NCBI GenBank assembly: GCA_009746045.1 | Contig: RPFO01000667.1 | Location: forward strand, 4,653,924 to 4,717,923 | Length of the DNA: 64,000 nucleotides | Origin: Mesostigma viride | Taxonomy: Eukaryota > Streptophyta > Mesostigmatophyceae > Mesostigmatales > Mesostigmataceae | Direction: 5' to 3' | Shown here: piece after piece, positions 8,071 through 52,281 of the stretch | How the letters are laid out: every line of letters starts with the position of its first letter | Numbering within the stretch: the stretch's first letter is position 1 | Translations under genes and position numbers: made by a program | The notes under the pieces: model-generated | Told to the model about the DNA's origin: nothing | Seen by the model: the letters and a program-made list of their open reading frames with translations, nothing else | Database searches by the model: none

Positions 8071-8837
8071 ATGTGCTGCACAGCAGGAAAGGGACACCGT
8101 CAATTTCATCCGGGGACGCACATGCAAGGCAAGGAATATCATCAACATCATTCTCACCATCACTACTACCTTCCCCATCGTCCCCCTGCCCCTCCCTTTG
8201 CATCACGTCGTGGCAGCCACCCTTAACACAGGTCATTCCGACAAGTCTAGCTCAAGTAATAAGGTTATGCGTGCTAAAACCTGAACATAAGCTTAAGGGG
8301 GGGGTTCTTTGTATATGGCCACTTAGGCATGCTGTTTTCCATCCAAAAAGCCAGAAAGCATGCCCCACTTGATCACAAAACATAAGCAAACGGCTAGGCA
8401 CCACATCTGCCCTCACCTGCCCTCGGCATGGCCAACCTTGCCAGCGCAAGCATAGCGACACGATCGCTAGGGCGCTAGTAGGCATACATGCCAAGAGAGC
8501 ATACACTATACTCTATACCCAAGGTTACCTTGTAAACTTCATGCCAAGAACTCAGCAAATCTATGATCAAAAGCACATATAATTAACTCTAGCACACTGA
8601 TGACGACACATGCTCAAGGTTGGGGGTCACTGTGGCACGCACTGATGGGTTTCCTAGACGACCACTCACTACCTGACAAGGCGCTAAGGACCACTCAGAA
8701 AGCAAGTAAACACAATCACACTTTACATGCCATCAACATGGATCAAATCCATGCTGCATATGTTGTGAAGTACAAAGGGGTGGCCACGCACCTGATACTC
8801 CTCCACCGTCCCTCAAGCCAGTGTTTCTGCTAACGCA

Positions 8838-26718: not shown

Positions 26719-29700
26719 TTAGACAGATAGACCGACTTGACAGTCAGCATTCATGAGCTTCCTCAGTACATTGTACTGGGCTGGGGCCTTGTGTGGCAGC
26801 TTTGTCAATGCATCAGCAGGGTTCTCCTCGCCAGGGATATGCTTCAAGTCAACCAAACTGGCCAACTCCTTCAGCAACAAATAATCCAGGTCCCGGCTCC
26901 TGGCCAGCTGCTTGTGAACAAACTGGACCATACCCATGCTATCTGTTAGCAACAACGTCTCCATCTGCAAGGTCCAAGGGGTAACTGAAGCCAGCTCCAG
27001 CATTAACTCCTTTATGTACAGGCTGGACTGGATCCCCTCGCATATGGCCCTGCATTCTGCCACATCTGAACTGATACAGACCCTCTTCTGCAGTCTGCTG
27101 TACCAGCTGAACAAACTTGCCCTGCTCTGATAAAAAGCAAACAGAGCAGCAGATCTCCCCCTGACCTTGGTAACCTGGCGAGCATCCATGGAACTGTCAA
27201 CAAAGATCTCCAAGGTGATAGGCTGGGCAAAGTCAATCCCAGACAAAATCAGATCAGGGGTACTCTCCACCAACCGGGCTATGACTCGAGGCTTCTCATC
27301 CTCAAGCACCTCATCAGGCATTCTGCTATGGACCATCAAAGACGGACCACAGATGCTGGCAAACCAGGCCCACATGCCTCTCAACTCAGGTCCTGCAGCC
27401 TGGGTGATCTTCTCTGGCAAGGCCTTCACAATGGTCTGTTTATAATCTCCTCCAGCCTGAAGCCTGATACTCCACTCCCCGTCCCTCCTGAACAGGGTAG
27501 CCTGCATTCCACAGAACACTACAGGCTTGTTGGGCTCCTGCCACAGCTCCTTGCCCAGTGAAAACTTGCCACTGATGACAGGAATAAACTTCTTCAGCCA
27601 GGTCGTGGGGGCTAGCAAATGCAGATCATCTCCATGCAAACTAGCATACACTGGCAGACCCTCCCATTGGGCCAGCAGCAAACAGGGATCAACTGAAGAC
27701 ACTCTCAAGCCACACTCACTGATCAGAGCTTCCTGCAGCGTGAGTCTCCAGATGATTGGGCTCGACCTGAGTCCTTCCAGGCCCTTCAGAATAACCAGGA
27801 ATTGTTGATGCAGCTCCAGCTTCCAGATGGCAGGCACCTCAACACAGTAAGGCTCATCCTGCTTCCACACCCTCCTGGCCACTTCTGGATCAGATTTTAA
27901 AAATGCCCTCTTGAAGTCCAGCAGCACTGATGACATAGCTGCTCCCCTGTTCAGCAACCCCACGTAGAGACATAGCAAAATTCTCCATGTGTCGTGTAGC
28001 ATCCCTGGCGTGTATAGCTCCTCTCCTGGCAGACTCCCCGTGCCGTGATACTCATTCAGGACAGGCCTGACATGGGGCACTGATACCTCATCCACAACCT
28101 TCCTCTTCAGCACAAATCTCAAAGCAAGCTTCCTTGATGCTGGGGGACGTCTGTCTGTTGGTGCAGCACACTCAAACTGCAACCACTCCTCCAATGCCTT
28201 GGAGAAGGCGAGCTTCCAAGCCTCAAACAAAGTAGGCGAGCTCATCTCTTGGACCAGCTGGTCATATGTCAAAGGAGAGTGTGCAGCAAGGCTCCTGTGA
28301 GTTATGCCAATACTGCTGGGGTGCAACACAGCTGGAATCACCAAACTGGCCGCTGGGGGCACCTCCCCTTCATCCCATTTTACACCCTTGACCGGCTTGG
28401 CCCTGCACCTGACTGGAAATGTTGTCCTGAAATTTTCTAGGGGAATCATCCCCCAGCCATCTCTTCTCAGAGCTGTAGCTCTGATAGAAATCCCAGGATT
28501 GCCCAGAAAATTCTGACCCAAAATCACAGGGCCATCATAGTCCTCTAGGACAAGGAAGGTCACATCCACACCCATGACAGGGGCAGTAACCTCTCCCAAC
28601 ACCCTTAGATGCGTCCTACCACTGAAATCAGACACCCAGGGGCAACTTGGTTCTCCGACCAGCAGTTCTCCTGTATGCTGAGGTCCCATGACAGAAACCT
28701 GTGCATTGGTATCTATCTCCATGGCAGCTACCTCAGGTTCATCCAACTGGACAAGCTTGGACACCTTAGGCTCCTTCTTGGCTCTTTGCAAAGCCTGTAC
28801 AATATCTGATAGACGCACACCCCTAGGCCTGGTGTCGGGCCGTTCCGGAGGTGCAGCCTGTCCGCCTGCTTGCCCAACCACCGTATGTGAAGGTACCCCA
28901 GGGGCCGGGCCAGGGTCACCCTGAGGGCTCGATACAGCTGTAGCACCCTGATCAGGAAGCTCCACGTCACCCCCGCCTTGTACACCAGCGGGCACCTGGA
29001 AGAGGTCTCCTTGATTACCTCCCCGGGGACGGATCTTTGACCAGGACAGACGGTGCACTGCTTGGGAGCCATCAATGGCCACCCAGCACTTATGGCCAGC
29101 GGCTTCTACTCGGGTCACCACCCCATCATGCCAGCTGCCACGTTTCCCTGGAAAGCTTGGTTCCTTCCACACAACAACCTGTTGTCCAACGTTAGGTTCT
29201 AGGACACTCCAGCCCTTGTCTTTCTGCCTCAGCTTGAGGAACTTGGCCTCTAGCTTCTCCTTCCATGCCTGCTCAGCATCAGCTGGCAGCATCCTGGTAT
29301 GCAGCATAAGAGGATTGATGGCAATGTCACCAAAGAACATGGGAGTCCTCAGGTTCAGCCTGTCCTCCACAGAACGTAGCCATGCAGATGTCACAATGGC
29401 AGATGACGTCCTTGGAATCCTCTCCACCAGCAGCACAGTCTTGATCTCTTGGATGGCTCTCTCCACCACCCCTTGCTGGCCGTGGCTCTCCCTGGGTGTA
29501 ATCAGCAACTCTGGAAACTCTGGCAGGTTCTCACAGCACTCAAACTGAATGTCACACTGCAACAACTCCAACCCAGGGTACCTGCTCCTTGTCAACTTCA
29601 GAGCAGCAATCAATGTAGGCTTCTCCATGTCAGGCAGGATCTCTAGGGTCTTGTACTTGGTATATCTGTCCACTGCCACCAGCAGCTTCAAACCCCTGAT

Positions 29701-30309
29701 TCTCTGAATATCTACCTGCACATGGCCTGGCTGCAAAATAGGAGTCCTGGCATGAGACTGCTTGGGCTTTCTAGCAACTAGCCTGCACTTGCAAGCTTGA
29801 GCAACCTGTTGGCAGATGGAGTACAACTCACTTCCTCCCAGCCGTCTAGCAACTTGCAAAGACTGAGCTGCATGGCCAAACATGGTATGCAACCTTGAGG
29901 CAATGTCATACAAGAGAGAAAACCTTTTATTGTCATTATTAGCACTCAAGGTATGTACAGATCCCTTATGTACAGGAGGCACCAGGGTCGTGCCTGTCAG
30001 ACTGTCTCCAGCCCTATCCTCATCCTGACCATCCTGTGCCAGTCCTGCACGGTCAGAATGCTTCTGAGATCCACCTGGGTCCACATCACCAGGTCCTACC
30101 TCAGGCTCAGCACCGCCATGGCGGGCACGTTGGCGAGTAACCACTGCAGCTACAGCTGGCATACTCTCTGTGGTAACCAAGCTTGCCCCATCGTGTCCAA
30201 TAGGCTCTTTCACTAGAGCATGGGGCTGCCCCTCACTGCTGTCACTAGCAGCTTCATTACACACCCCTGGGGGCACCCTCCAGGGTTCAGGGATGTGTGC
30301 AGGCTCAAG
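26719..30309 (-). CDS. C2 pol polyprotein: integrase, protease-like, reverse transcriptase, RNase H
   Basis: About 1,196 codons open from just after the gag TGA (30310-30312) to the stop at 26719. There is no ATG at the start, so expression by readthrough is likely. Approximate order: variable N-terminus (1-130); pre-integrase HTMFGH (about 140); integrase core (180-320) with D in HVQVDIQRIRG, D in LLQCDIQFEC and E in QQGVVERAIQEIK; retropepsin-like domain (about 530-610) with AMEIDTNAQVSVM and VILGQNFLGNPG; RT (about 710-960) with LDFKRAFLKS and YASLHGDDLHLL; RNase H (about 1030-1170) with FVDSSMDARQV, SDVAECRAICEG and HIPGEENPADALTK. IN-PR-RT order and DTN are shared with C1. No frameshift seen, so possibly active. 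Confidence 0.88.
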   Translation of the reverse strand, partial: LEPAHIPEPWRVPPGVCNEAASDSSEGQPHALVKEPIGHDGASLVTTESMPAVAAVVTRQRARHGGAEPEVGPGDVDPGGSQKHSDRAGLAQDGQDEDRAGDSLTGTTLVPPVHKGSVHTLSANNDNKRFSLLYDIASRLHTMFGHAAQSLQVARRLGGSELYSICQQVAQACKCRLVARKPKQSHARTPILQPGHVQVDIQRIRGLKLLVAVDRYTKYKTLEILPDMEKPTLIAALKLTRSRYPGLELLQCDIQFECCENLPEFPELLITPRESHGQQGVVERAIQEIKTVLLVERIPRTSSAIVTSAWLRSVEDRLNLRTPMFFGDIAINPLMLHTRMLPADAEQAWKEKLEAKFLKLRQKDKGWSVLEPNVGQQVVVWKEPSFPGKRGSWHDGVVTRVEAAGHKCWVAIDGSQAVHRLSWSKIRPRGGNQGDLFQVPAGVQGGGDVELPDQGATAVSSPQGDPGPAPGVPSHTVVGQAGGQAAPPERPDTRPRGVRLSDIVQALQRAKKEPKVSKLVQLDEPEVAAMEIDTNAQVSVMGPQHTGELLVGEPSCPWVSDFSGRTHLRVLGEVTAPVMGVDVTFLVLEDYDGPVILGQNFLGNPGISIRATALRRDGWGMIPLENFRTTFPVRCRAKPVKGVKWDEGEVPPAASLVIPAVLHPSSIGITHRSLAAHSPLTYDQLVQEMSSPTLFEAWKLAFSKALEEWLQFECAAPTDRRPPASRKLALRFVLKRKVVDEVSVPHVRPVLNEYHGTGSLPGEELYTPGMLHDTWRILLCLYVGLLNRGAAMSSVLLDFKRAFLKSDPEVARRVWKQDEPYCVEVPAIWKLELHQQFLVILKGLEGLRSSPIIWRLTLQEALISECGLRVSSVDPCLLLAQWEGLPVYASLHGDDLHLLAPTTWLKKFIPVISGKFSLGKELWQEPNKPVVFCGMQATLFRRDGEWSIRLQAGGDYKQTIVKALPEKITQAAGPELRGMWAWFASICGPSLMVHSRMPDEVLEDEKPRVIARLVESTPDLILSGIDFAQPITLEIFVDSSMDARQVTKVRGRSAALFAFYQSRASLFSWYSRLQKRVCISSDVAECRAICEGIQSSLYIKELMLELASVTPWTLQMETLLLTDSMGMVQFVHKQLARSRDLDYLLLKELASLVDLKHIPGEENPADALTKLPHKAPAQYNVLRKLMNADCQVGLSV

Positions 30310-30312
30310 TCA
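30307..30312 (-). promoter_or_regulatory. in-frame gag-pol UGA (C2)
   Basis: Gag ends GAT CAT TGA CTT GAG, and the same frame continues without another stop through the whole of pol. A single in-frame UGA followed by C between gag and pol fits stop-codon readthrough. Confidence 0.55.
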
Positions 30313-31497
30313 ATGATCAGCAGCCTTGCCCTTGCCCTTGTCCTGGGATGGACCAGCCTTGTCCTTGCTGCCACCCTGAGCTGGCTTGCTCTGACCTTCC
30401 TGCCTCAGGTACGAGGGACACTCATTCCTGAAGTGACCCTTCCCCTGGCAGAAATAACATTCCACCTGACTGATGTCCCGTGAGGTCCCACTGCTGGGCC
30501 CAGCCTTGGGAGGACCACCCACCCTCTTGAAGTCAAACTGGGACTGTGGATGTCCCGACTTCGGCGGGGTCCCCCGTCCAGCCCTTCTGTCACGCCCCCT
30601 CCTGGACCTTCCTCGACCCCTTGAAGAGGTCTCAGGCCCTCTCGAGGGCGCTGGGCCCCCGTGGCCCGATCCCCTCATGGACTTAACCGTGGGTTCAGTG
30701 GCCTCCTCATCACCCTGACGAGGGCGCTTACCACCCACGTACTTGCCGCTGAAACACTCATACAACTGGTCCGTCATGGCTGCCCAGCCATGGACCTGTC
30801 GCATGTGGATGGTCACATTATCCATGGTGACCGGATCCAGCTGCAGCGACTTGAGAAAGTCGCCCATGGCCATCCGATCTGCGACGAAGAAGCCCTTGGC
30901 CATGGCGTCCTCCCTCAGCTTGACGAAGTCTTCAAAGGCGTGGACCACTAGCTGCCCCTTGATGGGCTTGTAGTCCAGGTATTCTTGCTTCAGGTGGGAC
31001 CCATCTATGGTCCTCTTGTCACTCAGGAACGACCTGAGTCGCGTCATAAACGCCGTCCAGGTGTCCCCCGCCGCGTGTCGCTCCCGAACAAACTTGAACA
31101 GCCGCCTCGCCGACTGCCGTATGTAGGCACTAGACGCCAGGATGCGAAGCTTGTCACCGTTGTATATCTCCGTGTACAAGTTCATGTCCTCTAACATCCT
31201 CTCAGCATCCCGGGGCTGCCAATTGTCCTTGATGGACTGAAACTGGCCTAGCACCGCGTACCCCTCAGCAACGGTTGGTCGCTTAGGCGCCGCTTGATCT
31301 GCGGCTGGCGCGTGCTGCCCGCCCTGCGATCCTTGGCTCTGATTATCTGGCACCTCAGCCTGGTCTCCCAGCGCCTGGCCGTCCCCGCGTCCATCGCGTC
31401 CACCGCGTCCATCGCGTCCATCTCGTCCATCCAGCCCAGCGCCGCGCCGCGCGAAGCCCATAAAGCCCGCTTGTTGGTTGATAGCTCCATCCTCCAT
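30310..31497 (-). CDS. C2 gag
   Basis: Begins at ATG 31497 (MEDGAINQQAGFMGFARR) and ends at TGA 30310, 395 codons. It has a Gly/Asp/Arg-rich low-complexity N-terminus, a Copia-type capsid region (ERMLEDMNLYTEIYNGDKL, GDTWTAFMTRLRSFLSDK, KGFFVADRMAMGDFLKSL), an Arg/Ser/Gly-rich linker and one CCHC zinc knuckle (CYFCQGKGHFRNEC), then a Lys-rich tail. It encapsidates element RNA in virus-like particles. The stop is in frame with pol. Confidence 0.85.
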   Translation of the reverse strand: MEDGAINQQAGFMGFARRGAGLDGRDGRDGRGGRDGRGDGQALGDQAEVPDNQSQGSQGGQHAPAADQAAPKRPTVAEGYAVLGQFQSIKDNWQPRDAERMLEDMNLYTEIYNGDKLRILASSAYIRQSARRLFKFVRERHAAGDTWTAFMTRLRSFLSDKRTIDGSHLKQEYLDYKPIKGQLVVHAFEDFVKLREDAMAKGFFVADRMAMGDFLKSLQLDPVTMDNVTIHMRQVHGWAAMTDQLYECFSGKYVGGKRPRQGDEEATEPTVKSMRGSGHGGPAPSRGPETSSRGRGRSRRGRDRRAGRGTPPKSGHPQSQFDFKRVGGPPKAGPSSGTSRDISQVECYFCQGKGHFRNECPSYLRQEGQSKPAQGGSKDKAGPSQDKGKGKAADH

Positions 31498-31956
31498 GAT
31501 GGCCTCTGTTCAGATCTGCTACAGCCAGCCAAGTGGCCAAGCAGCAATTAAAGCAATATAAGCTACTGAACAAGAAAGGAAAGTGCCAAGTGTTACCACT
31601 CAGGCAAGACCACCACGGCTGGCCCCAGGCGCGTCCTGGTTCTCCTTGTCGCTGTCGTCGTCGCTGTCGCTCACCACAATCAGCTCTGGTACCCTGCTAC
31701 CTGCTGCGCCGTCGTCGACCCGCTGTCGGCCCGCGATGACTGAATCGTCACCGTTGGTAAAGTAGACAGGTGACAACCCGTCGTTGGCCCTCGCGGATTG
31801 TACGTTGGCACCTCGTGGTCGCCAAGTGTCTCGTCGCCTAGCCCAGCGACACCCCCTGCTCCTACCTCAAGGTCACTATCGTACCCAAGAGGTGCAAACT
31901 CTCCCAACGCGTCACACGAACGCGAAGGGGCGGGGGCAGCTCCTGAAAAGGAACTC

Positions 31957-38086: not shown

Positions 38087-38089
38087 TTG

Positions 38090-38114
38090 CCCCATGCACA
38101 CCTGGATTTGTACT
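38090..38114 (+). repeat. left terminal inverted repeat
   Basis: 25 bases starting CCCCATGCACACC, perfect match to the right end. Confidence 0.9.
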
Positions 38115-38210
38115 CCACCACTATAGTACAAATTGACTTTTTTTCAACTTTGTTATTTTGTACCTCTCTTAGGTCCAAAGGTAGGAGGTAAGTGTCTCAT
38201 CATGTTTTGA

Positions 38211-38430
38211 CACCGTTGCACCGTTGCACCGTTGCACCGTTGCACCGTTGCACCATAAAACTACCATTTTATGATTTTGTATGGTGTCACGAGGTAACCT
38301 AACGTCCAATACTAATGTTATAATGTCCACAAGCACTGCCTAAAGTGGGGTGCCACTGTGCCACCGTTGCACCGTTGCACCGTTGCACCGTTGCACCGTT
38401 GCACCGTTGCACCGTTGCACCGTTGCACCA
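38211..38430 (+). repeat. left subterminal octamer arrays 1 and 2 (GTTGCACC)n
   Basis: Array 38211-38254 (about 5 units) and 38362-38430 (about 8 units), separated by a 107-base spacer that recurs at 40436-40538 before array 3. The octamer period is exact (ACCGTTGC ACCGTTGC). Confidence 0.9.
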
Positions 38431-38434
38431 TAAA

Positions 38435-40432
38435 TCGGATTTCTTTGAAAAGAGTTTCTCGAAGTGAGGCGGGGAATAAGGCCGCTCACGGGAGCCGCCT
38501 GGATGGTCGGCTGAACCGGGCGGGTTTGGCAGATGTAACCGGATTTGGCTAATGGCTGGCGACCTGGAATTGTTAGTAGGGGCAGTGGCCCTATTGTGCT
38601 ACAATCTCGAAACAATCTTATGCTTAAAGTTTGACAGGGCCGGGTTTGTTGAACCGGTTTGTTGAATGATAATTAGAACCTTTCGGAAAGGGTATTTGAT
38701 TGGTTGTTGTTTTTGTGGTACGGTAGGTGTCGCTACATTCTCAGGTTGGCGTGTTAAGTTAAGCTCGGTTGCTGATGTCAGCCCCGTGCTAGGGCAGTTT
38801 GACTACTTTGGCGGCGTAGTGACATTGTTGTGGTCTTTTTTCTTGTAAACGTTGGCTGAGCGCCGACGGCTGAGGCTATGGCGGTACAAGAAGTGCCTCA
38901 CCAGCCTTGCGCTCAGCATGGGTGCGGGGCTAAAATTTGTTAACCAAATTTCCGGCATCCATGATCCCTGGCTGCTTAAGGCGGTTGGGATTCATGGCTG
39001 CCACTGGCCCGGAATTAATGTCCGGGTGATCGGGGTTTAAATGCGAAGCGGGGGCTGATGCATTATTTAATGGCTGGTTTGTTTGAAAGAAACGGCCAGC
39101 TGGCCGGGTTGGGCAAGGGCTAGCTTGCTTGATGGTTCCGTACCTGGGGATGCTTGCGCCTCGGGTTGGGCTGTCGGCAGGCTGGCCTGCCTTTGAGTTG
39201 TCTCGTACCTGGAAATGCTTGCATTCCGGGTTGGGCTTGGCTTGAGGGCCGCCGCGGCTCGGGGGGATAAAAAATTTAAGTCACCGTTGTGGGACACGGA
39301 GCCTCGGCGCAGGAGGCAAGGGCTGAAAGCCAACTTGATTTCGTAATCAGTGGTATTTCCACTTTTTTGTACGGAAGGAGTGTTTATGTGCTCGGCACTA
39401 CCTAGGTTGGTTGCTCTTCAAAAAAGTTGTAAACTGGGCGTCGGCTGGAATCAGCGGCGCCAGTCAGCAGCTTTTGCTTTGACTTTGTGTTCCGCGACAG
39501 CACCCCTTAGCGGACCAGAGAAGAGGTCGGCAACGAGGTCAGCGGGGGCCCCCGAGTGGGGTCAAAAATGCGAGCTGTGTCGATTGACAGTGCATGAATT
39601 TTTGTGCATTCACAGTCGCTGGGAATTAAATCTGTTTTCTGGCAACGGAGAGCGCCCATCGCGACAGGACAGCTTTTGACGGGAAAGGAAATGGTGCTTC
39701 TTTAGCGGACCGGAGGGCCAGGAAGGGGAGGTTGGGTAATCGCGAGCCATGCCTAAGGAGTTCTTAATAGCGGTTCTGTAACCGCTACCTGTCTGTATGC
39801 ATCTACTTATTGTTTTAACAAAGATGCTGGTGACTATGGTGAGCAAACGGGTGTATGAATCGGATTTCTTTGAAAAGAGTTTCTCGAAGTGAGGCGGGGA
39901 ATAAGGCCGCTCACGGGAGCCGCCTGGATGGTCGGCTGAACCGGGCGGGTTTGGCAGATGTAACCGGATTTGGCTAATGGCTGGCGACCTGGAATTGTTA
40001 GTAGGGGCAGTGGCCCTATTGTGCTACAATCTCGAAACAATCTTATGCTTAAAGTTTGACAGGGCCGGGTTTGTTGAACCGGTTTGTTGAATGATAATTA
40101 GAACCTTTCGGAAAGGGTATTTGATTGGTTGTTGTTTTTGTGGTACGGTAGGTGTCGCTACATTCTCAGGTTGGCGTGTTAAGTTAAGCTCGGTTGCTGA
40201 TGTCAGCCCCGTGCTAGGGCAGTTTGACTACTTTGGCGGCGTAGTGACATTGTTGTGGTCTTTTTTCTTGTCCCACCCACCCACCCTCTTTGGTGGCCTG
40301 GTCTGCGCGGGTAATCGCGAGCCATGCCTAAGGAGTTCTTAATAGCGGTTCTGTAACCGCTACCTGTCTGTATGCATCTACTTATTGTTTTAACAAAGAT
40401 GCTGGTGACTATGGTGAGCAAACGGGTGTATG
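38435..40432 (+). mobile_element. SDR-1: split-direct-repeat element (TOC/PAT/DIRS-like, non-autonomous)
   Basis: Structure A1-I-B1-A2-B2: A1 38435-38846 and A2 39860-40271 (both 412 bases, near-identical), internal 38847-39734, B1 39735-39857, B2 40309-40432, with 37 unshared bases between A2 and B2. Both B copies end GTGTATG and both A copies begin TCGGATTTC, with AA at every junction. The empty target sequence survives in a neighbouring repeat copy at about 38253 (CCATAAAACTACC), which places the insertion at AA. No ORF for RT or tyrosine recombinase. This repeat order is diagnostic of tyrosine-recombinase retroelements such as TOC1/PAT. Confidence 0.7.
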
Positions 40433-40536
40433 AAACTACCATTTTATGATGCTGTATGGTGTCACGAGGTAACATAACGTCCAATACTAATGTTATATTG
40501 CCCACAAGCACTGCCCAACGTGGGGTGCCACTGTGC

Positions 40537-40646
40537 CACCGTTGCACCGTTGCACCGTTGCACCGTTGCACCGTTGCACCGTTGCACCGTTGCACCGTTG
40601 CACCGTTGCACCGTTGCACCGTTGCACCGTTGCACCGTGCCACCGT
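40537..40646 (+). repeat. left subterminal octamer array 3 (GTTGCACC)n
   Basis: About 12 units plus two variant units (CCGTGCCACCGTG) at the right end. It belongs to the same array-spacer series as 38211-38430, from which SDR-1 separates it. Confidence 0.9.
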
Positions 40647-40902
40647 GACATGTCTTGACACATCATTTTTTGACTTTTCCTACGCAAGTAATGCAAGCAC
40701 ATGGCAAAATAAAATATTGATGATTACTTGAGACAAATATTAATTGATTATCAGCATTGTCTCCAATGTCTCCTACATGTAACATATGGAGAAGCAAGTA
40801 CTACGTGATCGCAACCACAATTCCTTTGTTCGCCAACTAATACATCACAGCATGAAAAAGCTGAATAAATGGCTGAAAACTGACAAAGAGGTGCAAACAC
40901 GA
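40647..40902. other. spacer inside the 14.2-kb element
   Basis: AT-rich, downstream of the minus-strand partner gene. Nothing recognised. Confidence 0.4.
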
Positions 40903-42502
40903 TCAATATGAACATGAACCATAATAAACTGGTTCCCCTCGCTCATTTGCATCTTGCGAGTACGGCTGATGCCTTTTCCGCGATGGAGGGGCGGGGGGCG
41001 GGGGGCGGGGGGCGCTGCGAGCACGCATGCGTTCATCATCAAAGTTGCTGTGAGTCGTGAGACGAGTATACTGAGTTGCTGCATAATGTCCCTCAGCATA
41101 ATGTGGCCTATCTGGCTCCCTCATGGCGGCAGAACGGTAAGCGCCCTGCAAGGGCTCACCGTGGGCCATATAATAGGAGTCATAAGGCTCGTACAGGCCA
41201 TGCGATTCATCTTGCCAATCCAGCTTCCTTGCCTCATCGATCGCGGGTGCGCGCGTGCGCGGCTCTGGCTCATCTTGCCAATCCAGCTTCCTTGCCCCAT
41301 CGATCGCGGGTGCGCGCTTGCGCGGCTCTGGCTCACGGCGTGCCGGCTGCCATTCTGCCCCCTGCATGCCGGTGAAGCCTTCACGTTGCCGCAATGTGGG
41401 AGGCGCAGCAGGAATGGTCGGCCGGTGAATCTCCGTGCCGCGGCTTGAGGTTGGAGCACATTCAACAGGCGTGCATGGCACTCGTTCCCTTTCCAAAGCA
41501 TCAACCCTCTCCGTCAGGGATTTGACCTGTTCCTTCAGCTTCGCAGTCGCGGGGTTCTCTGGGGCGGCAGCCGGCTTTGCACGCGCTGCCAATGATGATT
41601 GGCACTTGGAAACCTTTGCATTCAAATCAGCGATCTGCATAGCCACAGACGGCGGCGCCTTCTTCCTCCCTTGCTTCGCTTGAAACCCCACCCAGTCCTT
41701 CAGCTCTGGGATTGCTGCCTGTGCTGCTTGCAACCCCTGAGTAAGGGGCGCTAGCCACTTTGCCGGGGGAGCTGCCGGGGGAGCTGCCGGGGGAGCTGCT
41801 GGCATCGCACTCTCGGACGGTGCTGACTTTGCTGCGCGAGGCGGCAGTGCCTTCCCGCCCTGGTATTCAAGCTGGCGTGCAGGGCGCAAGCTCCGCTGGC
41901 CCCCCCCCCCGCCGCCGTCGAGGCGCGCTTCTTGGGCTTGACGGGTGATGTTTGTTCCTCGCTGCCATCGTCACCCCCCCTTCCCCATCATTGTGCTCCT
42001 CCTCCACCTCCTCTTCATCCTCCAGGTCATAGCTGGCATCGCCCCCGCTTTCATCTTCATCTTCATCTTCATCGGATGGAGCAGGCGGGACGACAGCGAG
42101 CACCTGAATTGTAAACATGCACGCATACAGAGATTGACATTTTACATCAACAATAATTAATGTTTTATGGTGCTTACAAATAGAGTGCTCCTGATGGTGT
42201 CTTCTAGTATGCACATTGATCATATGCGCCAGTGTGGTTTGCGCTCGGCTGCGGTTGGATTGCGCATGGCATGTTCTAGCATATGAATGTCAACAATGCA
42301 AAACCGATCTGAGATACTTACAAGATAGCCCTGCCCGGTGGTCTTGTTGGTCGCGCTCCTTAACTGGTTGATGCGCGACTCCTGGCGGGTAAACACTGAC
42401 GTGATGTCCGCCATGGCATCCGCCAAGGTAGTACTCGAATGGCAATGCAATTCGGCGGTGGCGGCAGGGTCAACCGTCAAGTTATATGGTCGGCACCACG
42501 CT
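40903..42502 (-). pseudogene. partner gene of the 14.2-kb element, C-terminal two thirds
   Basis: Continues from 43810 across a hAT insertion. Exon part 42502-42322 (LADAMADITSVFTRQESRIN) ends at donor GTAAGT. The next exon starts at 42103 after TTACAATTCAG and opens with an acidic stretch (DEDEDEDESGGDASYDLEDE), then a basic PKKRAS patch, a Pro/Ala linker, a coiled coil (LKEQVKSLTERVDALERERV), a duplicated Arg/Asp-rich unit (RAPAIDGARKLDWQDEPEPR) and a Tyr-rich tail to TAA at 40903. Two frame changes fall exactly at G/C homopolymers (about 41980 and 41898-41908), which may be sequencing errors. No known family; it could bind the octamer arrays. Confidence 0.6.
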
Positions 42503-43809
42503 CAGTGTACAGCCATACGCAATACGCAACCATACGGGGCCCATGGGTATGGTGTATAATACGCCATACGGGGTATAATACGCAAATCATACGGGGACTC
42601 TTGAAAATGCTGTTTTTTGCATGGTTCAGGGGGTTCTTCAACATTCTGACCAATCAGGCATGTTTTTTGTGTGTTCTTGCAACACCACTTGCCTTTATTT
42701 AACACATCATCACATAATATTGCCGTTGCCGTCGCTGCATGCCTACAAATACAAGCATTGTACATCTGTTGTTACTAATAATGTCTGTAAATAGCACACG
42801 GTCAGTCGGCCAACTTGCCAAAAGTAATAAAACATCGTGCCAGAAACAGACATCTTGCCTACTCGTGGTAGGCCACCATGCAATATTGATCTACATGAAG
42901 CAAGAATCCATACGGGCTGCCAACAATGTGGCTAGCGTGCAGGATACCATGCATGCCAGCAACCCGACCCAGCTTCCCTAAACCATTAACACATATGGTA
43001 CGGTGGCTGGCTAGCAGCAGCCTGCATGGCTAAATAAGGCATTTATGTGCATCGCGAGTCACACCAAATACCCCGCAGCCTGCGACGTAATGCCTCCGGC
43101 GGCCTCTTGCACTCGCTCACTCTTGCCTCCTTCGCGTACGTAGCGCCCATGATATGGCGGGTGCTAGCCTTGCTCGGGTGGTAGAACCCGAGAATTCTGC
43201 ATCCAAAAGTGTGCACGTCACTTAGCTTGTAGTTACCTGTCGGCTGCCCTTTCTTGTTGAGAGTCTGTTCTTTCACGATGTGTGTCCAGACAGTCTCGAA
43301 TACGGCCTGCATCTCGTCGGCCCAGTCATCATCGTGTTCCATAGACCCACACCATCACCGTCGCTAGCCATGGTGCCTGGATGTCAATTGTGCTACGATT
43401 AAATGTTAGGTGCCAGATGCGCGCCCTTGTTGGCAGACAACATAACTTCGTCACCTAATTTCCTCGTCCTTCGTCTCCTAGACCCTAGTCCGACACGCAG
43501 CAATCTGCAGCAATGCACGTACAGTCGTACATGCACGGCCAGCTTGGCACCTGCATGTCGTTTATTTGTCGCGGAGTTCCAGGTCGCCTAGATACAGTCT
43601 AGTTCCGGCTCCACTGCCGTCCAAAATGATGCCAGAAGCTACTTCGAACGCGGTTCATACGCAAAAAATACGCAAAAAATACGCAATACGCAAAAAATAC
43701 GCAAAAAATACGCAGTGCGTATTTTTTTCCCCATTTCCATACGGAAATCTTGCGTATGGCGTATAATACGCGCCATACGGCGTATTATACGCCGTATGGC
43801 TGTTCACTG
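42503..43809. mobile_element. hAT-3: non-autonomous hAT nested in the partner gene
   Basis: Terminal repeats CAGTGTACAGCCATACG (42503 on) and, at the right, CGTATGGCTGTTCACTG (to 43809), one mismatch in 17. Exact 8-bp target duplication ACCACGCT at 42495-42502 and 43810-43817. Subterminal regions hold many GCGTATTATACGC / ATACGCAAAAA motifs, like the hAT end at 5.7 kb. Without it the minus-strand partner gene frame is continuous. Confidence 0.92.
43043..43342 (-). CDS. hypothetical ORF inside hAT-3 (99 residues)
   Basis: Starts ATG (MEHDDDWADEMQAVFETVWT) and ends at TAG. It includes YKLSDVHTFGCRILGFYHPS and a basic C-terminus (KRPPEALRRRLRGIW). No hAT catalytic or BED motif. Possibly a remnant or a captured fragment. 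Confidence 0.35.
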   Translation of the reverse strand: MEHDDDWADEMQAVFETVWTHIVKEQTLNKKGQPTGNYKLSDVHTFGCRILGFYHPSKASTRHIMGATYAKEARVSECKRPPEALRRRLRGIWCDSRCT

Positions 43810-44966
43810 ACCACGCTACACGGATTTCACCGGAGGCGAATGAGGTAACCGTCCATTCTCCTTCCCCGCAGCTGTAAATGGGACGCACCAACGCCACAAA
43901 GGACTGGTACTCATGGCCAGTGCTGGCTGCCCTCACACAAGCGAGTCCGAGGATGACAAGCCGCACAACGGTGTTGCCCGTGGGAGTGGCACGCAGGTCA
44001 CGCATTAGCTCAGGATCCGCATGACTGCAGATGTCACCGATGGAGAACGACGTCACCTTGGCGGTGCTACGAGAGCCAGCCTTTTTGCACGAAACATACA
44101 GCGGAGGCCAGTCACTCTTGGTGTCTAGTTGGGCCAGGGAATCCTTTTCATCAGACAGCGTGTAGAAGTTGTGAGCTCGTGTGATGTTGTGCTCTGGAAC
44201 GGTTATCTGAGGAATACCGTTGATGAACCTGCTGTTGGTTGGAAAACCCTTGCCCACGTCGAGCATGTGAAGCACAACTGGCTTGGCCGCAGTAGCACCC
44301 CGGGATGCAATCGAGAGGCTGCCGGCTCCCTTCACGAGCACCCCCAAATATCCCAGATACTTGACGAGGCACTTGTGCGCAACTGGGTCCTGCGATGCTG
44401 CCTGTTGCAATTCAACAGCAATTGCACAAGCAATGTCATGATTCCAAACGCCAAGAACTGCACTTAGTAATATTCCTTTGGTAAAATGCAATTCAAGAGC
44501 AATAGCACAAGCAATGTCATGATTCCAAACGCCAAGAACTGCACTTATTGTAATATTCCTTTGGTAAAATGCAATTCAAGAGCAATAGCACAAGCAATGT
44601 CATGATTCCAAACGCCAAGAACTGCACTTATTGTAATATTCCTTTGGTAAAATAACAACCGGATTTCCCCTGTCATAAATTTACCTGAGATTTCCCATCC
44701 GTTTTGGCTGTTTGCTCGGTTTCCTCATCCGAAGCACCGGAGGCATTCATTCTATGAAGTTCATTGACTGCTCCCCTGACGTACACGTTTGATGCCCTTT
44801 GCTTCTGTACTTCATCACCTACAGCGCCCACTGATACAGGGCCTGTATCCATTGTGTTCTCTTGCCCCGGTGGTGCTACTGCGTCCTGTTCACTGGCATG
44901 CTCCACATGTCCGGCATCCCCGCCATTGTTTTCAATACCTGCCTGCGGCTGCACGCCGCTAGCCAT
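43810..44966 (-). pseudogene. partner gene of the 14.2-kb element, N-terminal part
   Basis: Starts at ATG 44966 (MASGVQPQAGIENNGGDAGH), acidic/polar, with a donor (CAG|GTAAAT) near 44684. The next exon begins near 44458-44470 after TGCAG and reads GVWNHDIACAIAVELQQAAS, LVKYLGYLGVLVKGAGSLSI, HNFYTLSDEKDSLAQLDTKS and VVRLVILGLACVRAAST. It reaches the hAT-3 target duplication in the codons GEIRVAW; the frame continues on the far side at 42502. The intron holds a triplicated 83-base unit that contains the acceptor. Junction phase is not settled. Function unknown. Confidence 0.55.
44404..44651 (-). repeat. 83-bp tandem triplication covering a splice acceptor
   Basis: Three near-identical units (starts near 44404, 44487, 44569), each with GCAATGTCATGATTCCAAAC and a minus-strand AAGTGCAG acceptor. 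The inner unit includes the first codons of the exon; the other two lie in the intron. Confidence 0.85.
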
Positions 44967-45122
44967 TCTCAGCTATCCGGATTTCCGAACTACGCCAATA
45001 CCTGGCCAGAATGGCTGAAAATTTCCACGAAATGCATCCAAGTGCACGAATTATTGAGTCGGTGGTGGCACCATGGCACGGAGTACAAATGGGTGGTGGC
45101 ACGCCGTGCCACCGGTGGTGGT

Positions 45123-45356
45123 GGCACGGTGCAACGGTGCAACGGTGCAACGGTGCAACGGTGCAACGGTGCAACGGCCAGTGATTGGCCCGTAGTTGAT
45201 TTTGTGATATGCGCCTAGTAAAAATTGGCCGCAAATCTTGTGCCCACGTACGACCGGACGAATTTGCGGCCAATTTTTACTAGGCTGCATGTCAGCAAAT
45301 CAAGAACGGGCCAATCACTGGCCGTTGCACCGTTGCACCGTTGCACCGTTGCACCA
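45123..45356. repeat. central palindrome carrying octamer arrays
   Basis: Left arm: (GGTGCAAC)n then GGCCAGTGATTGGCCCG and CCTAGTAAAAATTGGCCGCA. Right arm: the inverse (TGCGGCCAATTTTTACTAGG, CGGGCCAATCACTGGCC) then (GTTGCACC)n. Arms of about 100 bases surround a short centre (about 45237-45260). It lies between two divergent genes and could be a shared promoter or a binding hub. Confidence 0.85.
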
Positions 45357-45580
45357 CCAAATTTTACTCCAGAATGCCCTGTCTTTGCATGTAAAGGATA
45401 ATTATGATAATGAACCAGCGATGGAAGCAAGGGGATAATGAACCAGCGATGGAAGCAAGGGGATAATGAACCAGCGATGGAAGCACCAGCGATGGAAGCG
45501 ATGGAAGCTGGAGGGGGAGGGGGAGGGGAGGGGAGGGGAGGGGAGGGGGAGGGGAGGGGAGGGGGAGGGGGAGGGGGGGG

Positions 45581-45582
<2 letters not shown>

Positions 45583-45629
<47 letters not shown>

Positions 45630-45630
45630 C
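45583..45630 (+). repeat. G-rich run (poly-G)
   Basis: About 48 bases, almost all G, preceded by GGGGA repeats (45511-45582). It lies just upstream of the transposase-like gene and could form a G-quadruplex. Confidence 0.9.
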
Positions 45631-45661
45631 GGCCGTATAATATTACGCAGTTCCTAAAGCC

Positions 45662-48391
45662 ATGTATTATTACGCAGTTCCTAAAGCCATGAAGGGCCTG
45701 GGCATTATGGAGCCCGATGCGGGGGCGCAGGTTTTTGGAATGCTATTCTCGCTGCTTGTCCTGGTGGTCGTGTTGCTCGTCATGGCGAGACGAGGGCTCC
45801 GTCTTAGCGCTGCCGCCGTCTTAGCAAAATGCACCACGGATGCGTCCTGTGCTGCGGCACTTAGCAGGGACTGGGACTGTGGGTGTGGCCGCCACTGTTT
45901 GCGAAGCGTGCATTTCGAGGAGATAAGAGCGATGAGGACCGACATGTGGTCTAAGAAGCCTGCGGATCGGAAAGAGTTTATAAAGAACCAGCTTTTTCAG
46001 GCCGGCCAGCGAGAAACTGAAATTCCGGGGAGCTTGCGTCACAAACGCAGTCGAGACGAGGGCTTCCTTTTCGCAGTGGATGGCTACGTTACTTACCCAG
46101 CTGACAGGCATCAGCCAGAGTCGGCAACCCCGTTTCTGCATCGCATATGTGTGAAGCCGCTTTCCGCCGTGCTTTGTATATCAACCCCAATATGTGGCAC
46201 GCGGCTGTCAAGGAGACAACCCGCCCTCGACCTTTGCCTGGCGATCGTGATTTGGAGTCCGGCTTGGGTAGCACTGCTGGACGGCGCATTGGGGTATCCC
46301 GGTCATTGTCTGCCAAGATTGGGGAGGCCAAGGCGCTTTGTGAGCTGTGGATTCGGCGTTGGTTCTGCCCAGCAGTTGAGAAGGATCCCCGGGATGGCGC
46401 CAGCATCATTGAGCAACCGTGCAAGAAGACTTTATACTCGGACTACACTGCAGAGCAGCAGGACTACGGAACACCTGTAGTTAGCATTTCGCTTTTCAGG
46501 ACAATTTTTGAAGCAGTGAGAGTAAGCATGCGAGTCCGGATTGAGAAATATCGCACGAAAATTATGGGTGAGTGCTCCCGCTGCCGGAAGTTAAAGGATG
46601 CCATCTTGTCTTATCGGACCACTGACCGGACCCGGTGGGAGGCTTTCAAAGAGAAGTTAGCTGATCACACCGACTTCTTTAATGGGGAACGGATGGCTTA
46701 CCTGCAACGAAGGTTTGAGGGCGCCAAGCACTATTTTGTTTCCATAGTCATCGATGGTCTGGCGAAAATGAAGACGGCGGTTCCAACCAGGGGCAGCGCC
46801 TCGAAAGAGTGGCTTAGCAGCCGCAAGCTACATATACCCTACCAGCTGGTTTGCTCGATTTTGCACGGAGTGAGGACGTACTTCTGGGTGATTATGCCTT
46901 GGGTAGCCAATTCTGAGGTTTCTGGTAATTCAGGGCGTGTCACTGCGACGCTGCTCACACACCAATTGTTGGAAGTGGTGGTTGAGCGACCATGGGAAAG
47001 GTCCCGCAATCCTGAGATCCGCGAGTTTGGCCTTGCCACGACACTCGTCCTTCAAGTGGACGGGGGTGGGGACAACATGAATAGCGAGCTATTGGGCTTT
47101 CTAGCGGTTCTCATTAACCGCCGTCTCTTTTCTCTCATCAGGGTGTGCCGCCTGCCCCCGGGGCACCCCCATAATGACGCTGATCAGAGATTTGGTTGGT
47201 TTATCCGGTGGTACAACGGGATGAAGAACCGCGTGTCAGATCTCGCACCGACCGGTGCTCATGCTGACATTTCAAGATGTGTTGCAAGGGCTGACGCGTG
47301 CCTTTGCACACTATACTACGAGCAAGGCCCATTCGGGAGCATGGCGACAATAAACCCACTGCCGCCATCTGCCAAGGTTGGTTTTCTTAAAATACTATGA
47401 ATTTCTTCCGGGTTCTTCTTCTTTTCCATATGTAGCATGCCATAGTTAACCAATAATCACCTTGCTTACTCGCCTCTTATTGCAACTGCTTGTTCTATGC
47501 TTGTTGCTTGCAGCTCGTCAATGCAGCGCTGGACTTCACAACGTGGCTTCGAGGCTGCATAGACCCAGATCTTGGGCGTTGGGTCAAGTCTGCTGACGTG
47601 GTTATGGACGCGTCAACCAACCAACCTGTGGTGGAGCATCAGCCGGTCAGCAAGATATTTGATATCGAGCTATTCGGCCATCACGATGAAGGTGCAGGGG
47701 CGGACGTTGGTGATGACTGCTTTTTGCGCTACCGACTTGCCACGGCAGAGGCGTTAGCTGATGTGCCCGCCAACTGTTGGAGGCCTCTTGGGCCGAACGA
47801 GGAGCCATGCGACATGGTTACTGTCTCTTCGAAGCGTGTGAGTGATGGCAAAGAGCTCCGCGGCGTGCTAGTCATGGAGGCGACCGAGGCGCCCAAGGGC
47901 AGCCCAGGTGTTGCCGCGTTTGCGGATTGGGATGGCGATCGCGCAATCCGCCGTCATTGCTCTAAACTCAACCGAGTGTTTCCAGACATCATGACGGATG
48001 CAAAGCAAGCAGAGCTCAACGAGGAGATCCGCGGCTTCCCCGCTGAGCCGGAGCAAGTGGAAGAAGAAGCGTCGGTGTTTGACCGCATGATCCAAGCTCT
48101 GACGGAGTGCAGGGAGCAGCAAAAACACAAGCCCCTCCCTTTTTGCCTCCACAGTGCAGGGGATCAGGCGGTGATGCGGGCTGCCCGTGCTTTGGAAGCG
48201 CCGCTGCACCCAATTATCAGCCATGCAGGCAACCGCCGGCACGAGGTGCAAACTGCCATTCACCGGGCGCGACGCGAGGCTGAGCGCCTGCCGGCCGCAT
48301 CTGCCACGCCTGCCACGCTTGCCTCCAATCCTCCTACTGGAGTTGCCTCCAATTCTCCTGCGGATGCCACCGGTGGTGCACGGACCATTGC
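45662..48391 (+). pseudogene. putative DDE-type transposase of the 14.2-kb element, N-terminus and core
   Basis: Segment 45662-46146: a hydrophobic helix (FSLLVLVVVLLVMA), then a Cys/His-rich region (DWDCGCGRHCLRSVHFEEIR). An unresolved frame change or short intron near 46090-46146 leads to CEAAFRRALYINPNMWHAA; the core follows with ECSRCRKLKDAIL, YFVSIVIDGLAKMK (Asp), TTLVLQVDGGGDNMNSELLG (Asp) and PPGHPHNDADQRFGWF (GHxHxDxD). These are the landmarks of an uncharacterised DDE-like family found in many eukaryotes (I believe DUF7869-related). Intron 47377-47513 is phase 0; the next exon runs to the SDR-2 insertion at 48391. Interrupted, so probably inactive here. Confidence 0.6.
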
Positions 48392-50542
48392 TGTCGCGTC
48401 CGTGATCTATCACGTCCGCAATTCAGATTTTAGCGTAATTCTGACGTCCGCAGCCTTGTGCGGGTTGCTATACCGCGGCCCGGTACTGACGCCGCGGATC
48501 TCAATTGTACTCACGCGCCAAGTCCGCTGAATTTGCTGACGGAACTTTTGGGCGGACCTGAATTTCACTGACATTCGTCACAAGGGCAGTTTGCCGAATG
48601 CTGGTACGCAGCAAGCCGGCGAGGCACTGAGCAGATGTGCAATTTCAGGATTTCAACGTGGGACACCAGACACAAATGCAAGGAAGCCCCAGGCGGTGCC
48701 TGGCATAGCCAATAGATTTGCCCTTGTATATTTGTGTTCGCTTGACAGATAAAGCTTGAAGTTTAGCTTGTCGGAAATTAGACAATGTTATGATTGGCTG
48801 ATGTCTAGAGTGGCGCTAGTGGCGCCAGCCGCCAGGCTTGAGCTTTGAGCAGTATAGAAGGATGAGCAACGAACCATGGTGGTCGTTGTTCGTCCGTTTC
48901 TCTCCCTCACAACTGGTTTGTTGTCTTCATGGGGTGAAATAGTTCGAGCAGCCCGGAGCAGCCCCCGTGAGTGGTTGCATGCAGTCAGTTGCCATGAGGA
49001 TGGACTGACGGATACGACAATGTATTGGTTTTGTTAAGAATGTGTGTAAGACTGAGAACGAGACAAGGGGCAGGGCCTTCGGGCACCCTGGTCGTCGTTG
49101 GCATGCATGCCAGTAGGAACTAGGTCGGGAACACACGCGCACTGCCGCCACAAGGGGCCTGCAGTGGCGTCAACCAAGGGACCTCACAGCTGCTCTTATA
49201 ACTACAACATTACAACTCGACACTCTTTGTAATTCGTCATGTATCTCATTGGAATTGAAATGTCTTTTGGTTGCTTTAATGATAAAGCATGGTCTCAAGA
49301 ATCGGCTGGTTGGGCCGGATTGCCTGTCATGAAGGTGGCGGTGCCATAAAGGACCGCACCTTTCATTCTCATTTTAAACGGACGAACAACCCATGATGGG
49401 TTCAGTCCGGCCAGCCTGGATGTTCCTCCTGCTTCACCCAGGGAAGCACAAGGAAAAGGTTATTGCTTAGCCTTCAAAAGCATCTGAAGAGGTTAGGCTT
49501 TTCCCGGTAAAAAGCCATCGAAGGGGTTATTGCTAAGCCTTTAAAAGCATGCATGTTAAGGTTGTTGCTGATCCTGGAAAAGCATCTTGGAGCAGCTGGA
49601 TTTTTTTTTTCTTTTTGCTGCTGCCTGGAATGACGCCCTCTTTGGGCTTCCTTCTTTAGTGTGAGATGCCTTTCTTTCACTTTTTGCTCTCACGTTGTTG
49701 TGAGCTAAATAGTGGGGGGGAGGTGGCATATCGCACACATGATTACTGCTGATAGTGGATGCATTCCAAGTAGCGGTAATGACCAGTCCAGGATGATATG
49801 GCACGCAAACGCGACAGCTGTCGCGTCCGTGATCTATCACGTCCGCAATTCAGATTTTAGCGTAATTCTGACGTCCGCAGCCTTGTGCGGGTTGCTATAC
49901 CGCGGCCCGGTACTGACGCCGCGGATCTCAATTGTACTCACGCGCCAAGTCCGCTGAATTTGCTGACGGAACTTTTGGGCGGACCTGAATTTCACTGACA
50001 TTCGTCACAAGGGCAGTTTGCCGAATGCTGGTACGCAGCAAGCCGGCGAGGCACTGAGCAGATGTGCAATTTCAGGATTTCAACGTGGGACACCAGACAC
50101 AAATGCAAGGAAGCCCCAGGCGGTGCCTGGCATAGCCAATAGATTTGCCCTTGTATATTTGTGTTCGCTTGACAGATAAAGCTTGAAGTTTAGCTTGTCG
50201 GAAATTAGACAATGTTATGATTCGCTGATGTCTAGAGTGGCGCTAGTGGCGCCAGCCGCCAGGCTTGAGCTTTGAGCAGTATAGAAGGATGAGCAACGAA
50301 CCATGGTGGTCGTTGTTCGTCCGTTTCTCTCCCTCACAACTGGTTTGTTGTCTTCATGGGGTGAAATAGTTCGAGCAGCCCGGAGCAGCCCCCGTGAGTG
50401 GTTGCATGCAGTCAGTTGCCATGAGGATGGACTGACGGATACGACAATGTGGCATATCGCACACATGATTACTGCTGATAGTGGATGCATTCCAAGTAGC
50501 GGTAATGACCAGTCCAGGATGATATGGCACGCAAACGCGACA
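48392..50542 (+). mobile_element. SDR-2: split-direct-repeat element nested in the transposase gene
   Basis: A1 48392-49023 and A2 49819-50450 (both 632 bases); internal 49024-49723; B1 49724-49816; B2 50450-50542. Order A1-I-B1-A2-B2, as in SDR-1. A starts TGTCGCGT and B ends ACGCGACA (perfect 8-bp inverse); B1 and A2 are joined by GC. TTGC flanks the whole insertion (48388-48391, 50543-50546). The internal part holds repeated AAAAGCAT(C/G)-type motifs and a purine run but no ORF. Confidence 0.72.
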
Positions 50543-51339
50543 TTGCGACTGCGGATCATATTTTTTCCGTAAATCCCGGCATTATCTCCCGCGGAGACTT
50601 TCTCATCATCAAGAGACCTGCGGTGACGTGCGGGGAAGGCATGCCCTGGCCAGAGGAGCTCTTGGTGAAGGTCGTGGATGCGTCTACTGTTCGTTCACGC
50701 GGGACTCTGACTGTTTCCCTGTTTTACTCACCCTCCTGGGAAGGGCAGTTTAACAAGCTCTCGCTCGCAGGCGGTGGGCCGGGCCTGACGGTGTCGGCAT
50801 CGGAAATCATCGTTCAACACTGGACAGTTGGTGCATCAGGGCAGGCTGTCCACACTCCGTCGCTGACAGCAGCACGTAAGCTATCTCGTGCAACCCTCCA
50901 GGCCTTAGATGACCATCCACACGTGCACTTTGCTGGTTTTCAAACACAGCAAGCTGCTGCAGCGACGTCAAAAGCTGCATGTGCGGCACACTTTGTTGAG
51001 CACGGGCTGCACGCGCTGAAAGGGAGAAGGCTGTGCGCCTTGTGGGGTGCTGCCAAGACCCGTTTTCACGGGTGGGTCACAGAAGTACATGAGAATGGCG
51101 GGGCTTTGAAGATCGAGACGGTTTGGTCCGACGGCAAGGGAGCGACGTACACCACGTTGGAGGAAGTCTTAAAGTTCATCTGCGGGTGCCCTCATGCGGC
51201 TAATGCCTTTGGCCGCGAAAAGTTTTTTCAGGATGGTGCCGCGGCCGACGCTGAGACGGGGGCGGAAGAGCCCCAACTTTCTTTTGTTTGTGAGAGTAGC
51301 GAGAGTAGCGATGATGAGGAGGAGGAAGCATGGGAATGA
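50543..51339 (+). pseudogene. putative transposase of the 14.2-kb element, C-terminal part
   Basis: Resumes the exon cut at 48391, in frame when SDR-2 and one TTGC are ignored (ATADHIFSVNPGIISRGDFL). It contains WPEELLVKVVDAS, SLFYSPSWEGQFNKLSL and KGRRLCALWGAAKTRFHGWV, and a strongly acidic end (ESSESSDDEEEEAWE) before TGA. No known domain is assigned; the acidic tail could be a protein-interaction surface. Confidence 0.6.
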
Positions 51340-51626
51340 TGGGGAATGTGTGAAAGCTTCGATAGGAGTAAAGGCGTCTCTTTGTCCTGTCAAGCATGCT
51401 AGTCTTGTTGCAAGAATGAAGCCCAACATGCCAACTGTCCATGCATGGTCATGTTGCATAATGGTGGGCATAAGATACATGTGTTTGCTAGTGGCCATGT
51501 TTTACACGGAAATGGATTTACGTTCAGTATGTGATTCAATGACATGTGATTATTTTGGTTGATGCATGCAATATACCCCATGATAACCAATGCACGTGCA
51601 AAGATGTGTGTTTATATGCAATTTAA

Positions 51627-52160
51627 GGTGCAACGGTGCAACGGTGCAACGGTGCAACGGTGCAACGGTGTCATGAGCATCTAGGTAACCCTTGCATGAC
51701 CCATCCACCTACATAAAACCCATGGATAACAATTGCATGTGCAAAGGTGTGTGTTTATATGCAATTTGAGGTGCAACGGTGCAACGGTGCAACGGTGCAA
51801 CGGTGCAACGGTGCCACGGTGCCAAGGTGGCACGGTGGCACGATGCCACGATGCAACGGTGTCATGAGCATGTCTAGTTAACCCTTGCATGACCCATTAC
51901 CCTAGATAGATCCCAATGGATAACCATTGTATGTGCAAAGGTGTGTGTTTATATGCAATTTGAGGTGCAACGGTGCAACGGTGCAACGGTGCAACGGCGC
52001 CACGGTGGCACGGTGTCATGAGCATGTCTAGTTAACCCTTGCATGACCCATCCACCTACATAAATCCCATGGATAACCATTGCATGTGCAAACGTGTGTG
52101 CATATATGCAATTTGAGGTGCAACGGTGCAACGGTGCAACGGTGCAACGGTGCAACGGCC
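51627..52160 (-). repeat. right subterminal octamer arrays (GGTGCAAC)n, four blocks
   Basis: Blocks at 51627-51670, 51770-51862, 51964-52015 and 52117-52160, separated by spacers of about 100 bases that are near-copies of each other (TCATGAGCATGTCTAGTTAACC, CCATGGATAACCATTGCATG). The motif is the reverse complement of the left arrays. Confidence 0.9.
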
Positions 52161-52253
52161 GCCGACGAACTTTTTTTTCCTCAAAGACTTTAGTTGACCC
52201 TTTAAATGCATGAAAATGCAACTTTCAAAACTGAAGTACAATTTGAAAAATGT

Positions 52254-52278
52254 AGTACAAATCCAGGTGTGCATGGGG
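52254..52278 (-). repeat. right terminal inverted repeat
   Basis: Reverse complement of the left terminus, ending GGTGTGCATGGGG. Confidence 0.9.
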
Positions 52279-52281
52279 TTG

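Follow-up and report, generated by a model that had tools for sequence, protein, structure and literature searches.

A damaged insertion in the Mesostigma viride genome probably belongs to a young family of two-gene DNA transposons with a putative DUF7869 transposase

The stretch of 64,000 nucleotides analysed here (the window) is part of the Mesostigma viride contig RPFO01000667.1 (assembly GCA_009746045.1, positions 4,653,924 to 4,717,923 of the forward strand) and contains an insert at window positions 38090–52278. The insert is probably a damaged member of a young, recently active family of cut-and-paste DDE-type transposons with terminal inverted repeats (TIRs). The family has a unit of about 8.6 kb with two genes, and its putative transposase, which contains the domain DUF7869, would also act in trans on copies that carry no genes. 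Introns and Gypsy elements mark the surrounding DNA as part of a eukaryotic genome.

The insert is bounded by perfect 25-bp TIRs: the left repeat (CCCCATGCACACCTGGATTTGTACT, 38090–38114, plus strand) is identical over its whole length to the inverted right repeat (52254–52278, minus strand). Copies of the triplet TTG, read from the sequence, stand immediately outside the two ends (38087–38089 and 52279–52281). Joining the flanks with a single TTG restores an open minus-strand frame of 375 residues, which reads TDHRPLTHLLTQPTLTPR followed by QARWLEYLAQF across the junction and runs through TDHRPL...LTPR joined directly to QARWLEYL. We take this frame to be a Gypsy RNase H; the adjoining minus-strand frame at 52717–54198 matches the Pfam reverse transcriptase RVT_1 with an E value of 4.9e-30. 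The insert is a real transposon insertion into a Gypsy frame. An earlier note made on this DNA had described the perfect inverted repeats, the TTG duplication, and the Gypsy frame that becomes continuous without the insert, and all three descriptions stand. The exact interruption of the Gypsy frame rules out a host gene cluster or a part of the Gypsy element itself. The origin of the ends as a chance repeat is ruled out by the 3-bp duplications, by the copies in the genome, and by 100 shuffles, in which the window TIR had no match with up to three mismatches allowed.

A search of the genome (440 Mb in 2243 contigs) with the window TIR, also allowing up to three mismatches, found 190 places, 100 in forward and 90 in reverse orientation, and the reversed pattern, used as a control, was found at none in the same genome. 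The analysis of copies is based on 100 of the 190 places. Among the places listed there are 36 neighbouring pairs of a plus end and then a minus end separated by 7.4–17.4 kb, and three more pairs 27–48 kb apart. The 36 pairs were examined, 32 of them as whole elements and four by their ends only, and the three wider pairs were left out. The earlier note had made its reading depend on the existence of second copies with the same ends; 35 such end pairs are present in addition to that of the window. An exact 3-bp duplication flanks 31 of the 36 end pairs, and our own estimate of the number of triplets matching by chance is about 0.6 of 36 (36/64). TIRs combined with target duplications whose length is constant from site to site are the mark of class II TIR transposons. 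The 31 duplicated triplets form 15 classes up to strand. One insertion (L016 and L017) is present on two contigs in opposite orientation; therefore, there are at most 35 independent sites. In some places the assembly probably includes both haplotypes, and allelic empty sites may thus exist. Two of the exceptions share stretches of other lengths at their flanks, 5 bp in L011 and 2 bp in L026. In the other three, L023, L030, and L046/L047, the triplets on the two sides are reverse-complementary and not directly repeated (TAA/TTA, TGA/TCA, and TGA/TCA, respectively), perhaps as a result of rearrangement via alternative transposition.

Four coding copies (L009–L012) are 8558–8673 bp long, with pairwise identities of 99.65–99.94%. 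The intact unit of the family is about 8.6 kb, and the 14.2 kb given in the earlier note is not the element's own size. The high identity of the four copies at unrelated sites indicates recent movement. In each of them, one strand has a 580-residue and a 575-residue frame, measured from stop to stop and separated by a GT–AG intron, and a multi-exon gene on the opposite strand starts across a central palindrome from the putative transposase gene. The earlier note was also right about the window copy in that its two genes diverge from a central palindrome and its subterminal regions contain motif arrays. The motifs are 8-bp units, CACCGTTG on the left and CAACGGTG on the right.

The protein encoded by the two same-strand frames, predicted by splice reading to be about 1,100 residues long, is most likely the transposase, as judged from its sequence. 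Exon 1 matches the Pfam domain DUF7869 (PF25273) at residues 463–520 with an E value of 4.2e-11; at E values up to 10 exon 1 has no second Pfam-A match and exon 2 has none at all. The domain is detected in three family proteins that are 43–63% identical to each other (E values of 4e-11, 2e-14, and 4e-13), and three divergent members score 43.2, 49.7, and 54.0 bits relative to a curated cut-off of 26 bits. The alignments cover just 59–74 of the 192 positions of the profile, which represents a domain without an assigned function. A genome search with exon 1 returned at least 78 matches, with identities ranging between 100% and, at the low end, 62, 61, and 46%; 75 of 948 candidates were scored, so the counts are lower bounds. 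The relatives with 62% and 46% identity in the same genome also match DUF7869. Exon 1 of the 46% relative stops at the equivalent position and is likewise followed by a GT, and the similarity continues in a different frame with exon 2, at 37% identity over a 235-column alignment (E value of 1e-34). The shared end of exon 1 and the conservation of exon 2 therefore indicate that both exons belong to a single conserved gene. At least 26 places match residues 207–555 only, at about 87% identity, and 23 of these have equal scores and an open frame of 397 residues (for example, C887:4624749–4625795). This group is a separate high-copy derivative.

An alignment of four sequences, two of which are 99% alike, contains invariant aspartates D371, D473 (in DGGGDN), and D512 and D514 (in GHTHxDxDQRFG), and 39–41 residues separate candidates two and three for the catalytic acids. 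The AlphaFold2 (AF2) model from four sequences is weak, and shows the order strand–helix–strand–helix in this region. Such an order is expected where an RNase H core ends, which is suggestive only. Searches against sequences in the PDB gave no match for the single exons, and the best match of the alignment was a BAR protein with an E value of 0.82. No relative was found in viral contigs or prokaryote contigs, nor among 7994 candidates scored in a protein-database search.

The product of the second gene contains acidic and coiled-coil-like stretches, as judged by eye. In L010 and L011 this gene has an open long frame of 367 codons, whereas L009 has a different frame and L012 a split one. It is very unlikely that this minus-strand protein is the real transposase and the DUF7869 protein is cargo, even though sequence alone cannot prove which protein cuts and both genes are gone from the gene-free copies. 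The second-gene frame L009:7007–8128 has only Pfam matches below the cut-off (FlxA, E value of 0.007; CSN5_C, 0.22), and the long frame is split in L012 despite the 99.94% identity of this copy to L011. By contrast, none of the four coding copies has an interrupted DUF7869 frame, and the protein is conserved over a long divergence. The other of the two accessory frames has no Pfam match at E values up to 10, and a search of PHROGs at E values up to 1 gave a single match, of an accessory frame to a family of unknown function (E value of 0.31). A 62% match of an accessory frame in L012 was considered as a sign of divergence and dropped, as the frame is merely split.

Most whole copies are without genes: 27 of the 32 have no similarity to any of six query proteins (tblastn, E < 1). 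They are 7.4–9.4 kb long, and this length rules out that they are short derivatives formed by internal deletion. DNA comparison with L009 (blastn, E value of 1e-8, stretches longer than 60 bases) showed that each of the 27 matches L009 in three blocks only (1 to about 490, about 3640–3892, and 7865–8586), which are the left end, central palindrome, and right end of L009. In addition, L027 alone keeps a relic matching the 5′ part of the minus-strand gene. Two gene-free copies read frame by frame, L013 and L027, contain long low-complexity repeats.

The central palindrome is near-perfect, 148–149 bp long, and present in all 32 whole elements examined. Its shoulders carry CAACGGTG and CACCGTTG arrays, as do the ends of the elements, with one shoulder in L027 being without an array of two exact units. 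The chances are close to even, but somewhat against, that the palindrome serves the two genes as a bidirectional promoter region and nothing more, and was passively kept in the gene-free copies. The two genes begin on opposite sides of it, and the gene-free copies are closely alike and probably descend from few founders; therefore, there were few independent retentions, and 27 copies do not count as 27. However, these copies have replaced both flanking arms and yet keep the palindrome, which is identical among the gene-free L013, L021, L022, L026, and L027 and 95% identical to that of L009. It is also more conserved than the element ends: among L013, L026, and L027 the identity is 100% over 149 bases of the palindrome, 93–95% over the first 117–118 bases of the element, and 96–98% over the last 130 bases. 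The palindrome pairs better in L013 than in L009, with DNA folding energies of −74 and about −64 kcal/mol, respectively. A bolder proposal, possible but doubtful, is that an unnamed eukaryotic DDE superfamily, characterized by 3-bp duplications and CCC ends, has DUF7869 as its catalytic domain, and that its elements would need the palindrome of about 150 bp as a third cis site. The element would then consist of two half-transposons placed head to head, each with CACCGTTG on its left and CAACGGTG on its right.

The copy in the window matches L009 in pieces only and reaches 14.2 kb because other repeats have inserted into it. All the arrays listed here are on the plus strand. The left subterminal arrays of CACCGTTG span 38211–38429 (38211–38254 and 38362–38429). 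They are followed by an extra stretch of about 1.8 kb (38430–40271), which lies between 417-bp direct repeats (38430–38846 and 39855–40271), has no match in L009, and displaces a further CACCGTTG array of the left end to 40537–40646. The divergent second gene occupies several exons on the minus strand at 40903–44966, its outer limits being approximate. It is broken by a nested insert of about 1.3 kb at 42503–43809, which is called hAT-like from its 8-bp duplication ACCACGCT and CAGTG-type inverted ends. The palindrome, 148 bp long in this copy (45176–45323), has a CAACGGTG array on its left shoulder (45126–45177) and a CACCGTTG array on its right shoulder (45322–45355).

The putative transposase gene follows on the plus strand. 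Exon 1 (45641–47376) corresponds to the 580-residue frame that is open in L009–L012, and the frame is damaged here. The DUF7869 core with the motifs DGGGDN and GHxHxDxDQRFG is at 47029–47202, a position obtained by reading the window against L009. The GT–AG intron, read from the sequence, spans 47377–47513. Exon 2 (47514–51339), which lies within the 575-residue frame in L009–L012, is split by a nested insert of about 2.15 kb at 48392–50540. This insert contains two 634-bp direct repeats and, as seen by eye, has TGTCGCG..CGCGACA ends and a TTGC duplication. The right subterminal CAACGGTG arrays are located inside higher-order repeats of about 150 bp (51627–52158). Because of the nested inserts in both genes and the disrupted exon 1 frame, the window copy has very likely lost its function and now merely houses other repeats.

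The mechanism proposed for the family is based on the analogy to En/Spm, in which one protein cuts and joins DNA and another binds subterminal repeats. The DUF7869 protein would recognize the 25-bp ends together with the subterminal, and perhaps also the central, arrays of 8-bp motifs, which are obvious candidates for protein-binding sites. The second, divergently transcribed protein may assist by bridging the arrays. The DUF7869 protein would then cut at the CCC ends and excise the element, and integration into staggered cuts in a target with little sequence preference would produce the 3-bp duplication. The DUF7869 protein would also provide these activities in trans to the gene-free copies. 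The central arrays and palindrome may either help to bring the ends together or serve as a divergent promoter.

Several observations weigh against this interpretation of the family as DDE-type transposons mobilized by the DUF7869 protein. The AF2 models have mean pLDDT (predicted local distance difference test) values of 39.8 and, for the four-sequence model, 41.8; because this confidence is too low, an RNase H fold and an acidic triad stay candidate features, and the third catalytic acid could lie in exon 2. Five of the 36 end pairs are without a clean 3-bp duplication, and the 3-bp matches of L024 and L040 sit in repetitive flanks with further matches of 9 and 11 bp. Moreover, the second gene is not intact in all four coding copies, since L009 and L012 deviate.

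If the DUF7869 protein is the transposase, the domain gains a likely job as a catalytic core, together with a natural and apparently young family in which it can be examined, and other eukaryotic DUF7869 proteins might be recognized as transposases or as domesticated ones. The elements that are free of genes and yet full-length point to the minimal requirements in cis. If the central palindrome is indeed required, it would be an unusual third site for a transposon that moves by cut and paste.

Two other regions of the window contain features of their own. A frame at 2213–3670 has a weak Ion_trans domain (E value of 1e-5, 25.3 bits relative to a cut-off of 25). A minus-strand frame of 1196 residues at 26722–31509 has no Pfam match at an E value of 0.001 and is beside a 399-residue zinc-knuckle frame; the two are possibly another retroelement.

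Most likely, the family is a lineage of DDE-type TIR transposons without a name of its own, which resembles En/Spm in the way it works and is outside its membership tests, a placement that comes from sequence comparison; it is called unnamed on the basis of Pfam profiles and published descriptions, and not of a comparison with Repbase proteins. Subterminal repeat arrays are a trait of En/Spm as well, and Pfam holds models of CMC transposases. The earlier note had described ends other than CACTA and a transposase different from that of En/Spm, and had proposed comparing the core with profiles of known superfamilies. The results agree with this description: the 100 listed of the 190 places all have ends of CCCC or CCCT, with neither CACTA nor CA..TG ends among them, and for the transposase exons Pfam at E values up to 10 gives DUF7869 only, with no CMC, KDZ, or PIF model.

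It is unlikely that the family is a far-diverged CACTA or CMC-clade element that shares mechanism and descent and has an eroded sequence. CACTA elements have TIRs around a transposase and a second open reading frame, 3-bp duplications, and CACTA ends (passages of PMC4158355), and CMC-clade elements produce duplications of 2–5 bp and in most cases have CA..TG ends (passages of PMC12730594). The TIRs, the two genes, the subterminal arrays, and the 3-bp duplication of the family are in line with such descent; the ends and the Pfam result stand against it. The CMC signature consists of C(2)C and H(3–4)H between the second D and the last E (passages of PMC12730594). No C(2)C was found after DGGGDN in exons 1 and 2 of L009 or in the relatives P0001 and P0002, of which exon 2 was covered in part, and the placement of the signature depends on inferred catalytic acids. 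The sole C(2)C, at residue 311 and equivalent positions, precedes the candidate catalytic acids. Spacings of the H(3)H and H(4)H type do occur in exon 2 of L009, where no C(2)C accompanies them.

Another explanation, to which we give a limited chance, is that the transposases marked by DUF7869 already have a different name in Repbase, which would make the family a new member of a described superfamily. Pfam holds DUF7869 from other proteins, and Repbase has 24 DNA superfamilies (passages of PMC12730594). However, no paper on DUF7869 was found in the full text of 5.39 million papers, and the superfamilies compared here do not fit. Duplications of 8 bp are described for Zisupton and a Dileera element and of 7 bp for Kyakuja (passages of PMC12730594), unlike the 3 bp of this family, which has no KDZ match in Pfam. 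Harbinger elements target TNA or ANT (passages of PMC12477816), whereas TNA accounts for none and ANT for one of the 31 duplicated triplets, and no PIF/Harbinger (PHIS) profile matches.

Other transposons, some of them algal, share features with the family. Jordan of Volvox carteri is an algal element with CCCTA-type ends and 3-bp duplications that is far smaller; some ends of the family also begin with CCCTA, a likeness that is not taken as a sign of kinship. Giant KDZ and EnSpm elements of algae share with the family their length, nested insertions, and copies thought to be mobilized in trans (passages of PMC12477816), and Zisupton and Kyakuja are reported in Chlamydomonas (passages of PMC8226300); the KDZ members differ in their duplications of 7–8 bp (passages of PMC12730594). 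En/Spm has TIRs, a 3-bp duplication, a second gene that aids transposition beside the first, and cut-and-paste movement, as described in passages of PMC4158355, and in these respects it resembles the family. By contrast, the family has CCCC or CCCT ends, is without the CMC signature or a CMC match in Pfam, has genes that diverge from a central palindrome, and includes gene-free copies that are about as long as the coding ones.

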